The position numbers and the translations under genes are program-made. The notes below the pieces were generated by a model. That model was not told the origin of the DNA and searched no databases. It saw only the letters and a list, made by a program, of their open reading frames with translations. Below, one piece after another: positions 795 to 4,643 of a stretch of 64,000 nucleotides of DNA. Position 1 is the first letter of the stretch. Each line of letters starts with the position of its first letter. Source of the DNA: Mesorhizobium sp. WSM4904 (lineage in GTDB: Bacteria; Pseudomonadota; Alphaproteobacteria; Rhizobiales; Rhizobiaceae); NCBI RefSeq assembly GCF_029674545.1, contig NZ_CP121354.1:2675001-2739000 (forward strand), read 5' to 3'.

Positions 795-2099
795 TCAGTC
801 AGTCAAGCCGTAAAGGCGCGCGCGGAACGCCGCCTTGTCCTTCAAATATGTGGTTTTCAGAACGTCCACAACATGCGATCGCCAGGCGTCGCTGAAGCCG
901 TCGAAGTCCCGGTAGAAGCCCGGTTTGTTGAAGACGTAGCGCGAGACGAAGTCCTGCGGCACGAAATCCGAGATCAGCTGGTTGGTAAGCCAGGCATCGG
1001 GATGATCGGGCCTGGCGCGCACGACCAGGAAGCGCTGGCGCGGCGGAACGTCCTCGACCTTGAGATGGCCGAACTGGGCGATTTCGCGCTTGGCGGCGTT
1101 GAGGAACGGGAAGTTGCCGTCGCTGGCAATCAGGTCGGCATGGCCGTGGATCCAGGTCTGCAGCCAGACCTTGTCGACATCCGTCAGGTTGCGGTTGGGC
1201 TCGGCGTCGCGGATCAGCGCCCGCACCACCATCTCGGCGCGATGCTCGAGATAGCCCGAGGCCTCGATCCAGGAGGCGCGCGGCAAGTCAAGGCGACCGG
1301 TGGCGGCGAGGAAACGGAACACCTTGTCGGCGTCGTTGATCGACAGATAGCTCACCTGCCACGGCCGCGAGCGGCGGAAGCCCGGTGCTGCCGGGTCGCA
1401 GATCACCGTCGTCATATCGGGATCGACAAAGACGTAGAGCCCGCCGAAATGGCTCGTCCAGTAGGCGTTGTGGCGGAAGATCACCTGGTCGGGGACAAGC
1501 GCGTTCTCGCGGATGTCGCCGCAGACCTTGGCGAGATCGACCATGCGCTCGAGCATGGCATTGTTGCGCCAGGCGTCGGGCTCCTGTTTCAGTCGGTCAA
1601 CAAGCTTGCCGAGCTCGGCCGCCTTGCCCAGCACGTCCTCGGCCGACAGCACCTTGAATTCGACCTGGTTGATCGAAAGCAGATCCTCGATGTCGTTGAC
1701 CTTGGGAACGGAGTCCTCGATCTCGCCGTAGATGACGTCCTTGATGGTCAGAGCGTCGATGGCGCGCTGGTTCTTGGACATGAATTCGAACATCAGCTGC
1801 GAGGTGTTGGAAAAGGCGGTGTGCACCACCGGCAGGTCGATCTGCGACGGCGTCAGGATGATGAAGCGGCGGTTGACCTCGTTGGGATCGAGATAGTCGT
1901 AGTCGCCGCATTCCTCGGCCACCTCGGGCGAAAAACCGGTGCGGTCGATCTGGAAGCTCGTCAGCTTGGTGGGCTCGAGACCGAAGGCGACGAGCGCCTT
2001 GTTGTAGCGCTGGACGAGATGCGGCTCGTCGACAGCGAGCAGCCTGCCGTAGATCAGCTCGTTGTCGCGCAGCAGGTCGGGCTTTTTGCTAGGGGTCAT
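795..2099 (-). CDS. conserved hypothetical protein, DUF6638-like
   Basis: A 434-aa soluble protein with no signal peptide or membrane segment. I chose the ATG at 2099 (MTPSKKPDLLRDNELIYGRL). The frame continues upstream to 2264, but that extension only translates the inverted repeat at 2142-2203 (PSPLPSPREERGEG) and is not believable protein. The sequence has a long mixed alpha/beta body with conserved-looking stretches such as FVDPDMTTVICDP near the middle. It matches my recollection of the rhizobial DUF6638 family, which has no assigned function. It lies between the boxed DUF559 cassette and the DUF2333 gene. The AAA ATPase that would otherwise be its direct upstream neighbour suggests a client or partner role, which is inference. 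Confidence 0.75.
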   Translation of the reverse strand: MTPSKKPDLLRDNELIYGRLLAVDEPHLVQRYNKALVAFGLEPTKLTSFQIDRTGFSPEVAEECGDYDYLDPNEVNRRFIILTPSQIDLPVVHTAFSNTSQLMFEFMSKNQRAIDALTIKDVIYGEIEDSVPKVNDIEDLLSINQVEFKVLSAEDVLGKAAELGKLVDRLKQEPDAWRNNAMLERMVDLAKVCGDIRENALVPDQVIFRHNAYWTSHFGGLYVFVDPDMTTVICDPAAPGFRRSRPWQVSYLSINDADKVFRFLAATGRLDLPRASWIEASGYLEHRAEMVVRALIRDAEPNRNLTDVDKVWLQTWIHGHADLIASDGNFPFLNAAKREIAQFGHLKVEDVPPRQRFLVVRARPDHPDAWLTNQLISDFVPQDFVSRYVFNKPGFYRDFDGFSDAWRSHVVDVLKTTYLKDKAAFRARLYGLTD

Positions 2100-2141
2100 T
2101 TGGGCGACCCAGTGAGATTTTCCTGTGTGGGCGAAGGATGG

Positions 2142-2203
2142 AGCGCCAACGTTGGCGTCCCCCTCTCCCCGTTCTTCACGGGGAGAGGGTAAGGGTGAGG
2201 GGC
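2142..2203. repeat. left inverted repeat of the DUF559 cassette
   Basis: About 62 bp that recur, inverted, at 2637-2699. The inner 45 bp (2159-2203) match their partner perfectly, and the outer part differs at a few positions. Inside is a short hairpin whose arms are ccctctcccc and ggggagaggg around gttcttcac. It lies directly before the stop side of the DUF559 gene. Confidence 0.9.
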
Positions 2204-2214
2204 GGCGCGAACGG

Positions 2215-2631
2215 TCAAGGATATGTCTCCCCATAACCTTCGGCGGCAATAAATCGAAGGTCATTTGTATCGATTTGGCGCTCTAAACGCTGCTCGACGG
2301 CCGCCAGTTTGGTCTCAAGCACCGCCTCCCTGTCCTTCAAAACGTCGACGTTCCAAAAGCGGAGGACGGACCAGCCGGCTGACACCATGAAGCGATCGCG
2401 AATCTGATCATGTTTGTTCGCGATATGCTGGCTCCCATCAACTTCGACAACAAGCTGGCATTCCCTGCAGGCAAAGTCAGCGAAATACCTGCCTATGGGG
2501 AACTGCCGCACGAATTTGTAGCCATTCAATCTGCGATCACGCAGCTCGTGCCAAAGCGCGCCTTCGGCATCGTTGTCTGACTGGCGCAATCGCCGTGCTC
2601 GCTTCGTCGTCTCGATTACCGGTCCACGCAT
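2215..2631 (-). CDS. DUF559 endonuclease-like protein (Vsr-type fold)
   Basis: A 138-aa protein with the DUF559 signature: an N-terminal ARRLRQSDNDAEGALWHELR block, then GYKFVRQFPIGRYFADFAC, then LVVEVDGSQH and a C-terminal VLRFWNVDVL strand. DUF559 belongs to the PD-(D/E)xK/very-short-patch-repair nuclease superfamily; the Asp of YFADFAC and the Glu-Val-Asp of VVEVDG are the expected metal ligands. I start it at the ATG at 2631 (MRGPVIETTKRARR), because the frame further upstream only translates the repeat at 2637-2699. The gene fits exactly between two inverted repeat copies and separates the AAA ATPase from the DUF6638-like gene, so it looks like a cassette dropped into an older operon. 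Nuclease activity is inferred from the family. Confidence 0.88.
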   Translation of the reverse strand: MRGPVIETTKRARRLRQSDNDAEGALWHELRDRRLNGYKFVRQFPIGRYFADFACRECQLVVEVDGSQHIANKHDQIRDRFMVSAGWSVLRFWNVDVLKDREAVLETKLAAVEQRLERQIDTNDLRFIAAEGYGETYP

Positions 2632-2636
2632 GCGCT

Positions 2637-2699
2637 GCCCCTCACCCTTACCCTCTCCCCGTGAAGAACGGGGAGAGGGGGGCGCCAGCGTTAGAGCTA
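2637..2699. repeat. right inverted repeat of the DUF559 cassette
   Basis: Inverted partner of 2142-2203. Positions 2637-2681 are an exact reverse complement of 2159-2203, and weaker identity continues to about 2699. The copy ends close to the DUF559 start codon at 2631. No target-site duplication is evident outside the pair. Confidence 0.9.
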
Positions 2700-2732
2700 C
2701 GTCTTTCAGCACACGTGGGCAGCGAAGCAACA

Positions 2733-4643
2733 TCAAGCATTCCACAGCCCCTTCTTCTTCAGCTCCTCCATCTCGCGTGCCGCACGCTCGCGCAGGCGCG
2801 CGTCGCGCAGCAGCTTCTCCACCGCGGCGGCGTCGGACTTGTCGGAGTAGCGGAATTCGGAATCGGCGTAGCGGTTGATCTCCTGCATGACCATCTCCAT
2901 CGAGAACGGGCCGCGCAGTTCCTCGATCATCGCCTTCTTGTCGTCGTAGCTCTTGTGCATGAAGGCTTCCGGCTTCTCGAACCAGTCGTCCGGCAGCTCG
3001 ATGTCCATGGCGCGCATCTTTATGGCGTCGGTGACGTTCTTGATGGCGCGGCCGGTGAAGCGCGGTTCGGCGTCCTTGATCATGTGCAGGTAGGTGCCGA
3101 TGTCGGCCATGGTTTTCGGCGCGCCGTTTTCCTTCATGTAGCGTTCATAGACCTTCGTCAGCCCGTCTTCCTGCGGCTTCTCGTGCTCCTCATAGGCCTC
3201 GGCCACGGCGCGCTGGATTTCTTGCGCCGCGTAGAGCTTGTGGTCGCCCAGCGGGATCTTGTGGTTCTTGCCGGCAAGCAGCACGAAGATGTCGATGTAG
3301 TCGTCGCGGGTCTGCGGGCCGTCGACCAGCCAGCGGGCGCCGGCGCGCTGGCGCAGCGCATCGTCGACATTCTCGGGATAGTTGGAAAACATGCCGAAGG
3401 AGCAGTTGCCGCGCACTACGGTGGAAGCACCGGCAAAGGCGTCCATCAAGACGCCGGTGATCTCCTGCTGGCCGGCGGACGCGCGGTCGTCGGAGCGGCG
3501 CGCCGCGACCTGGTCGATGTCGTCGATGGTGCCGAAGCCGATGGTTCGCGGATTGAGCACGTTGTTGATGAACTGGCGGCAGTTCTGGCCCGACTTGCCC
3601 TGATAGGACGAGATCTGGTCGACGCCGAAATTCTCGTAGACGAAGGGATAGCCGGCGACCTGGCAGTAGCCGTTGACGAGACCGGCGATCATCTGGATCA
3701 GTGTCGTCTTGCCGGTACCGGGCGCGCCGTCGCCGATGAAGGTGAACAGGAAGCCGCCGAGCTCGACGAAGGGGTTCAGCTCGCGCTCGAAATCATAGGC
3801 CATCAGCATCTTGGCCAACCTGACCGACTGGAATTTGGCGATGTGGTTGCCGACGACTTCTTCCGGTTTCTTGAAGGTCATCACCAGCGGCTTGGCACGC
3901 TTGCCGGGCGCCACGTCGAAGCCGTCGAGGGTGAAGTCGTCGACGTCGATGCGGATATGCGCGTTCTCGAACGGGCCGATGCCGTCGAAGCGCCCCTTAC
4001 GGGCCAAGAGTCCATCGATGGCGACACGGGCAAAGGCACGCGCCCGCGTCATCAGGTCGGCGTCGTCCTTCGAACCGGCAATCGCCTTGTCGAGCCCGGC
4101 CACGATCGACTTCACCGCATCCTGCGGCGTGTCGAAGAGGAAGTCGGGTTCGGGACTATCGTTCGGTGCCTCGCCGTCACTGTCGATCAGCTGGAACAGG
4201 TAGGAGGCGAAGCTGAAGGCCGAAACATAGGCCGCGGCCGACAACAGTCTCTTGAACCTCGCAGCCTCGTCGCCTTCGAGCGGAGCCCGGGCGTTCTTCG
4301 CCTGCAGGCTTTCGAGATCGGAACCCTCGGCAAAGACATCCGATATGGCCAGCGCGACGGCCAGGCCGCGGCGGGCGCGGAACAGAAGCGTGTGCTGCGG
4401 GATGCTCATCAACTGGTCGTCGGGATGGATCGCGGTGACCGTCTTCGAAAGCTCGACTTCGCGCGTGCGCCGCACCGAGCCGACCGATACGGTCGAGACG
4501 AAGCGCCGGTTGGTGCCGGCGAGCGCGGTGCCGGATTCGCGCGCGGGATCCTCCAGCACGACGATGCGGGTGATGAAGCTCTGCGCGGTGGCGCGGTGCT
4601 TTTCGATTGCCGCTTCCGAGATCGTGGTCAGCCCGGTGTCCAT
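2733..4643 (-). CDS. large AAA-type ATPase of unknown function
   Basis: A 636-aa protein. Residues 1-290 have no recognisable domain. A clear Walker A (GDGAPGTGKTT, residues 304-314) follows. The Walker B region is degenerate (IGFGTIDDID, about 368-377), with acidic residues but a weak hydrophobic strand. A sensor-1-like Asn (FSNYPENVDDALRQR, N421) and Arg-finger-like residues (R431, R433) complete an ATPase core of about 150 residues. The C-terminus is a charged helical tail ending KKKGLWNA. No membrane segment. It is the enzymatic centre of the minus-strand cluster: the unrecognised 381-aa gene ends 22 bp upstream, and the DUF559 cassette lies downstream. ATP-driven remodelling of a partner encoded in the cluster is the natural guess, but I cannot name the substrate. 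Confidence 0.85.
   Translation of the reverse strand: MDTGLTTISEAAIEKHRATAQSFITRIVVLEDPARESGTALAGTNRRFVSTVSVGSVRRTREVELSKTVTAIHPDDQLMSIPQHTLLFRARRGLAVALAISDVFAEGSDLESLQAKNARAPLEGDEAARFKRLLSAAAYVSAFSFASYLFQLIDSDGEAPNDSPEPDFLFDTPQDAVKSIVAGLDKAIAGSKDDADLMTRARAFARVAIDGLLARKGRFDGIGPFENAHIRIDVDDFTLDGFDVAPGKRAKPLVMTFKKPEEVVGNHIAKFQSVRLAKMLMAYDFERELNPFVELGGFLFTFIGDGAPGTGKTTLIQMIAGLVNGYCQVAGYPFVYENFGVDQISSYQGKSGQNCRQFINNVLNPRTIGFGTIDDIDQVAARRSDDRASAGQQEITGVLMDAFAGASTVVRGNCSFGMFSNYPENVDDALRQRAGARWLVDGPQTRDDYIDIFVLLAGKNHKIPLGDHKLYAAQEIQRAVAEAYEEHEKPQEDGLTKVYERYMKENGAPKTMADIGTYLHMIKDAEPRFTGRAIKNVTDAIKMRAMDIELPDDWFEKPEAFMHKSYDDKKAMIEELRGPFSMEMVMQEINRYADSEFRYSDKSDAAAVEKLLRDARLRERAAREMEELKKKGLWNA

Follow-up and report, generated by a model that had tools for sequence, protein, structure and literature searches.

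What is a gene for a nuclease-like protein doing between two inverted copies of a repeat, in the middle of an AAA gene cluster, and does its product act on that repeat? The locus that raises this question lies in a stretch of 64,000 nucleotides from Mesorhizobium sp. WSM4904 (the window), and its central gene (2215..2631, minus strand, stop codon 2215-2217) belongs to DUF559, a very common protein family of unknown function. The boxed protein, of the PD-(D/E)XK type with a Vsr-like fold, matches PF04480 with an E value of 1.4e-35 and 121.9 bits, the curated Pfam cut-off being 20.6. It is enclosed by two inverted arms of 76 nt each (2133-2208 and 2632-2707) that are 423 nt apart and 89% complementary; 68 of the 76 positions are identical, and the longest identical run comprises 45 nt (2159-2203 in the left arm). 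The original prediction had described a gene between inverted copies of a repeat of about 62 bp with 45 identical inner base pairs, splitting the AAA cluster, and this description was borne out, with arms slightly longer than claimed: the cassette sits between a DUF6638 gene (795..2096, minus strand, E 1.5e-68) and an AAA ATPase gene (2733..4643, minus strand, PF00004, E 2.1e-11), and as both neighbours lie on the strand of the DUF559 gene, the box is inside the cluster. The variable site between these two genes, which has no strand, spans 2097..2732 and is reduced to 16-45 nt at its shortest, in 13 relatives scored as empty; the DUF6638 gene served to locate and date the site in relatives. 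The probable start codon of the DUF559 gene, the ATG at 2631, follows immediately on the right arm (...GGGTGAGGGGCAGCGC|ATG), and the alternative in-frame starts lie further upstream, within and past the right repeat.

Each arm has a defined internal layout: the pyrimidine arm CCCTCTCCCC and the purine arm GGGGAGAGGG form a hairpin around a loop, and three spacer bases separate this hairpin from the tail, the purine stretch GGGTGAGGGG; both tails are directed inward. In the left unit (2133..2208, plus strand), the hairpin occupies 2161..2189 and the tail, which points to the 3' end of the gene, 2193..2202, where it mirrors the purine arm at 10 of 10 positions, as a triplex third strand would. 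The right unit (2632..2707, minus strand) has its hairpin, placed by the repeat arms and by folding, at 2651..2679 and its tail at 2638..2647 (both on the minus strand); the unit ends directly at the ATG, and the G-rich tail occupies the position expected for a ribosome-binding site. Single-stranded DNA folding of the two arms gave z values of -4.39 and -4.60. The window unit thus combines the pyrimidine arm, the purine arm and the mirrored purine third strand that characterize PIT, BoxC and TM repeats, with all ten triads in place, and by its sequence the repeat is of this predicted intrastrand-triplex type and not a GTAG or CGTC REP. The same mirror relation between purine arm and tail recurs in families with other sequences, as in GGAGAGGG with GGGTGAGG, GGAGAAGG with GGATGAGG, GGGGAGGG with GGGTGGGG, and GGGGGAGA with AGAGGGGG. 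Stem and tail covary: among 167 elements, 105 upstream and 62 downstream of DUF559 genes, the fraction of allowed triads was 0.910 with the element's own tail and 0.821 with permuted tails (sd 0.0057; none of 300 permutations as high), and shuffled tails of the same set reached 0.736. The stem-tail design is, as far as such covariation can tell, that of a predicted intrastrand triplex.

The repeat is not confined to the box. The genome of WSM4904 contains 42 matches to it at E<=0.01, of which 17, the two window arms included, extend over 51-76 nt with 84-100% identity. Outside the window, 15 copies of this length and identity remain, and judged by eye they are composites that join the window unit back to back to another, dissimilar unit, with the tails outward; they carry 14-bp inverted ends (GGCGCTGCCCCTCA / TGAGGGGCAGCGCC, also by eye), the terminal inverted repeats of an IS or MITE. 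On the scale of the genome, the hairpin CTCCCC-N2-12-GGGGAG occurs 351 times, often paired, against 4 occurrences of the reversed pattern. The genome has four DUF559 genes, and each of them adjoins an element of this kind, with two-sided boxes at the window copy and at one further locus (L003). Each of the four elements belongs to a different family, and the repeat differs with the DUF559 lineage, which refines the original prediction. Gene-less hairpin elements are also found in frame within glyQ (L003 2276-3304) and glyS (2-1375) of this genome, where they add about 40 residues. The element inside glyQ is present in frame in 3 of 16 readable relatives and absent from the other 13, and the insert replaces about two dozen nucleotides of the target. 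A single Y1/IS200-type transposase gene was noted in the genome (L226, G000:C1:2298822-2299184), in a 3.4-kb locus without a CTCCC-hairpin.

The pairing of DUF559 genes with such repeats is general. DUF559 was detected in 93 of 151 genomes in a search of the family and in 145 of 398 in a search of the phylum, and 80 loci were picked by hand from the strong matches, one per genome and nearly always its best match, with weak matches outside the sample. By alignment of the upstream 300 nt with the downstream 300 nt in reverse complement (score >=18), matched inverted flanks were found in 26 of the 80 DUF559 loci and in 1 of 466 other ORFs of the same loci; as further controls, shifted windows passed in 1 of 635 cases and mismatched pairs in 20 of 800. 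The remaining 54 of the 80 loci failed this two-sided test. A pyrimidine-arm hairpin within 250 nt upstream was present in 52 of the 80 loci against 15 of 452 ORFs, and outside the home class, in other classes of the phylum, in 13 of 20 loci against 2 of 107 ORFs. Hairpins on the 5' side were commoner than those on the 3' side (32 of 80), and 13 of the 80 loci had no hairpin matching the search pattern on either side. A set of named loci, the best 80 of 573, left 76 usable loci after L261, L274, L299 and L303 with flanks of less than 150 nt had been dropped, and gave matched flanks in 36 of 76 loci (0 of 178 ORFs) and 5' hairpins in 59 of 76 (6 of 178 ORFs). Over 160 loci, hairpin density per kb amounted to 3.76 within 250 nt upstream of the gene and to 2.20 on the downstream side, dropped to background at about 500-750 nt from the DUF559 gene, and was 0.03-0.16 past 1 kb. 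An association of DUF559 with its repeats elsewhere, which the original prediction had set as a check, is therefore systematic. CGTC-type REPs were considered as the partner of DUF559 and rejected: across the 160 loci, the count of such motifs was zero within 250 nt upstream and 3 on the downstream side, with the background rate elsewhere.

For a view beyond Pseudomonadota, four plasmid loci of 43 records were judged by eye; a hairpin with a purine tail was seen in Picosynechococcus, Deinococcus and Azospirillum, and the Synechocystis B12 plasmid locus showed a weak hairpin and tail only. The Deinococcus plasmid gene (L386 1465-1806) has two hairpin units with outward tails, opposite to the usual orientation. 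At seven loci (L065, L066, L082, L088, L090, L091 and L094), a DUF559 gene with a 5' element overlaps or abuts a downstream gene whose start, judged by eye, resembles that of GFA or VOC proteins; this arrangement, seen in several genera, suggests settled, perhaps domesticated copies.

How closely the repeat follows the protein was examined in pairs of DUF559 genes, of which 135 out of 5778 were excluded for homologous context, leaving 5643, and 5' flanks were called alike at a score of >=22. Alike flanks made up 13 of 35 pairs at a protein identity of at least 0.7, 9 of 65 at 0.6-0.7, 42 of 1177 at 0.5-0.6, 63 of 3618 at 0.4-0.5, and 9 of 748 at 0.3-0.4; paralogues of the same genome had alike flanks in 2 of 2 pairs above 0.7 and in 0 of 35 below. 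Over all pairs, the rank correlation between protein identity and flank similarity was 0.037, and the lineage effect is therefore limited to close relatives. These comparisons indicate that the repeat family varies with the DUF559 lineage, with a weak overall correlation. A link is also visible at the genome level, as family genomes with DUF559 had a median of 55 hairpins (n=93) and those without it 1.5 (n=58; p 5e-15), the reversed-pattern control differing slightly as well (3 with and 2 without, p 4e-6). Among twelve pairs of genomes from the same genus that differ in DUF559, the genome with the gene had more hairpins in 10 and fewer in 2. Exceptions occur in both directions: 10 of the 58 genomes without DUF559 contained at least 20 hairpins, up to 97, and 7 of the 93 with DUF559 contained three or fewer. 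Four genomes with 65-97 hairpins and no DUF559 match (G153, G185, G280 and G282) are candidates for a recent loss of the gene or for another mover.

The site in the AAA cluster was compared in 70 loci of the genus, 68 of which could be resolved, L049 and L341 having been dropped for want of an AAA match. Thirteen loci carried the cassette type of the window (type A) and 17 a type B, in which another DUF559, 56.6% identical, is combined with another repeat; 20 had repeats but no intact gene, 5 had one hairpin, and 13 were empty. The box is therefore not universal at this place, and the empty sites anticipated for relatives do exist. On the tree of the flanking DUF6638 gene, the distribution needs 37 changes, where 4 would be the least possible and shuffling gave a mean of 39.3 (35 of 200 shuffles were as low); 18 of these changes concern the presence of the gene, and 10 are between A and B. 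In one pair of genomes of the same species, that of WSM4904 has type A and the other type B, at a DUF6638 difference of 2.6%. Cassette distance correlated with that of the flanking gene with a Spearman coefficient of 0.69 for type B and 0.29 for type A; as the type B distances follow the host gene, descent plus loss accounts for part of the pattern. The second site, in glyS, was filled in 9 of 30 loci and empty in 13, with the right unit only in 6, the left only in 1, and 1 cut by a contig end; the leftover single units, right or left, are without tail. Without the locus at the contig end (L362), the glyS tree needs 11 changes, against a shuffled mean of 13.6. We saw no target-site duplication by eye at the AAA, glyS and glyQ sites. 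A unit of nuclease gene and triplex-type repeats is thus gained, lost and exchanged at these sites, which upholds the predicted mobile cassette in so far as presence, absence and exchange are concerned; no transposition event was seen, and type B largely follows the host lineage. Split or frame-broken DUF559 genes, as expected for genes under turnover, were noted in relatives of the genus (G111:C29:44440-44753, G137:C6:53605-53920, and G102:C1:2233132-2233445 and 2716025-2716338).

The intact genes of the AAA site are maintained as proteins. All 30 reading frames are open, and dN/dS is about 0.15 for the 13 genes of type A and 0.10 for the 17 of type B (120 codons), which shows, at the level of codons, that the cassette DUF559 is under purifying selection. 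Among 24 diverse DUF559 sequences, E22, D51, E62, D64 and H68 are invariant, all of them residues of catalytic type. An AlphaFold2 model of the window protein (mean pLDDT 79.5) gave as the top Foldseek match 3hrl, the DUF559 protein NGO0050 (E 2.3e-7), followed at some distance by the homing endonuclease I-Bth0305I (3r3p, 4.1e-3) and by 1vsr at just 0.79, with mitoribosomal proteins ranking between these structures; the sequence profile likewise reaches I-Bth0305I, at E 3.2e-4. By its modelled fold and its conserved acidic and histidine residues, the protein is a predicted PD-(D/E)XK nuclease of the Vsr-like type. A role in anti-phage defence was considered and set aside, PADLOC having returned partial weak matches alone (PDC-S37 at E 6.7e-5, to a stretch of a model of 1550 positions, and DpdF at 0.009).

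Repeats of the intrastrand-triplex type have been known in E. coli since the 1990s and are reported from more than 260 genomes; a 2015 survey leaves their origin open, and its DMS footprinting gave no support for triplex formation in vivo (PMC4666352). E. coli K-12 MG1655 has a DUF559 gene, ycjD, which is so named in RefSeq and matches PF04480 with E 1.4e-49, and the published TM element no. 9 (1,351,239-1,351,204) lies 168 bp from its stop codon. With 18 TM regions in 4.64 Mb, the chance of a given gene lying this close to one is about 0.003 by simple arithmetic. The authors of the survey looked near TM sites and report no mobility functions there, and they do not name ycjD (PMC4666352). Between ycjD and TM no. 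9, we noted 39 nt that match the 3' part of ycjD at 90% identity (L379 1541-1907, ycjD-fabI) and may be left over from a second copy. Of 5426 E. coli genomes, 3362 contain the ycjD intergenic stretch over 80% or more of its length. A clean empty site was sought in two strains without ycjD (L380 and L381) and was not found there, as in both the same side of fabI is occupied by an RND efflux pump region together with a TetR-type regulator, so that the difference is a swap. A separate control list, with the strain unstated, did not include E. coli among the holders of DUF559, which is at odds with the ycjD match of MG1655.

We favour, with moderate confidence, the interpretation that the DUF559 nuclease acts on its own cognate triplex-hairpin repeats, in a partnership that resembles that of REP and RAYT and is built of unrelated parts. 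In this unit, a DUF559 gene would be enclosed by two inverted copies of the intrastrand-triplex-type repeat that belongs to it, with many gene-less copies dispersed in the genome. The protein would bind the cognate repeat, perhaps only when this is extruded as a hairpin or triplex from single-stranded DNA at the replication fork, and would then nick or break the DNA at the folded repeat. Repair or strand transfer—by a nick with strand transfer, or by a break with gene conversion—may copy the repeats to new places, occasionally together with the gene between its two units, and the copying may also go into the same place of another genome. That no target duplications were visible and that the glyQ insert replaces part of its target speaks rather for such recombination-like copying than for a classical transposase. 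Loss through the palindromic stems would leave one hairpin or one tail-less unit, and because these stems are also direct repeats of each other, they offer a simple route to single-hairpin scars. A wider claim, which we regard as possible but doubtful, is that DUF559 proteins are the dedicated dispersing enzymes of PIT/BoxC/TM repeats across bacteria, reading the three-stranded fold and not the base sequence and moving the repeat as well as their own gene, and that YcjD of K-12 with the 23 published TM elements is a relic of this.

The box could also owe its existence to a nuclease that is useful to the host, in Vsr-like mismatch repair or a similar function, with a 5' hairpin that regulates the gene's own transcription or translation and a spread of repeats that is a side effect. 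The abutment of the right unit on the ATG, with its tail at ribosome-binding-site distance, the excess of 5' over 3' hairpins, and the strong purifying selection all suit such a function, and a study on Caulobacter interprets VsrA, a DUF559 protein, as a mismatch-repair nuclease (PMC12907096). We nevertheless consider this unlikely, because it accounts neither for the two-sided matched inverted copies and the lineage-specific repeats, nor for the many dispersed hairpins of the WSM4904 genome and their near absence in reversed form, nor for the rapid gain, loss and swap at two sites. If, instead, RAYT/Y1 or other enzymes, or RecA recombination, moved the repeats, DUF559 would be a passenger carried between two copies; the repeats are indeed dispersed, so recombination between copies can carry the intervening DNA, and there is one Y1 transposase gene in the genome. 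However, the other genes of the sampled loci are practically never boxed, and a general passenger process would need to select DUF559. Furthermore, 6 of the 8 genus genomes searched, all of which have DUF559, gave no match to Y1_Tnp, and the Y1 loci L226-L228 are without such a hairpin. A RAYT/Y1 transposase is weakened as the mover, and the passenger explanation as a whole appears improbable to us.

The variability of the sites invites the related thought that triplex repeats are unstable, and that accessory genes, DUF559 among them, collect and vary at such fragile places. The 2015 survey reports raised variability at E. coli TM loci and proposes the triplex repeats as a cause of instability (PMC4666352), the AAA and glyS sites are highly variable, and efflux genes take the place of ycjD in the two E. 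coli strains examined. Yet this hitchhiking, to which we likewise assign a low probability, leaves unexplained why DUF559 in particular should be involved and why the inverted copies are matched and lineage-specific, and hairpin density has already returned to background about 500-750 nt from the gene. Very improbable, in our judgement, is a purely allelic history, in which the cassette types, the empty sites and the repeat-only sites are ancient alleles that were swapped between species by ordinary homologous recombination of the flanks, the nuclease taking no part. It would agree with the conserved genes on either side of the AAA site and with type B distances that follow the flanking gene, but it accounts for the turnover at one site and not for the association across phyla, the dispersed copies, and the covariation of stem and tail.

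A nuclease that acts on its own triplex-type repeats would provide a candidate mover for repeats that have long been orphaned and a candidate substrate for the protein, and the link can be tested in E. coli K-12 with ycjD and TM no. 9. If confirmed, it would add a structure-reading PD-(D/E)XK branch to the partnerships of repeat and nuclease, so far represented by REP/RAYT, and explain the C-rich hairpins that crowd at the start codons of many DUF559 genes. Among the open-access papers that we searched, none was seen to link DUF559 to these repeats.

Parts of the arrangement have counterparts in several known systems. The DUF559 box shares with IS elements and MITEs the terminal inverted repeats and the gene-less miniature copies, but it has no DDE or other known transposase, and no target-site duplication was seen by eye at the three sites. 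The similarity to I-Bth0305I (PDB 3r3p) in profile and fold connects it to Vsr and EDxHD homing endonucleases, so that a selfish nuclease of related fold is already known; empty alleles, of the kind that a homing endonuclease would cut, exist at the AAA and glyS sites. In contrast to those genes, the DUF559 box has no intron or intein, and a repeat of its own lies on either side of the gene. To the BoxC, PIT and TM repeats, it is related by the hairpin CCCTCNCCC..GGGNGAGGG followed by a further GGGNGAGGG (PMC4666352), and by the position of TM no. 9 next to ycjD. The arms, the 3-nt spacer and the tail of the window unit fit the TM-ECO consensus, whereas its loop of 11 nt between CCCTCTCCC and GGGAGAGGG exceeds the 3-6 nt of that consensus; the element at ycjD is itself on the published TM list.

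The closest comparison is that with REP/REPIN-RAYT (TnpA-REP). In both, a dedicated nuclease-type gene has on either side, in inverted orientation, a hairpin-forming repeat of which further copies are dispersed, mostly between genes; gene-less dimers occur, and a genome has several families, each paired with a gene of its own (for REP/RAYT, PMC3733652). The enzymes differ, that of the box being a predicted Vsr-fold PD-(D/E)XK protein that matches PF04480 and not Y1_Tnp, and RAYT being a HUH/Y1 transposase. The unpaired ends differ as well, since the box has a purine tail that mirrors the stem where REPs have GTAG or CGTC, the CGTC type having been covered by the scan of 160 loci. The REP-transposase-like logic that had been proposed for this locus is supported, in that the gene stands between inverted units of a repeat found throughout the genome, but the Y1/HUH enzyme and the GTAG/CGTC tags of REP/RAYT are not those of the box: without being a member of REP/RAYT, the DUF559 box would work like it.
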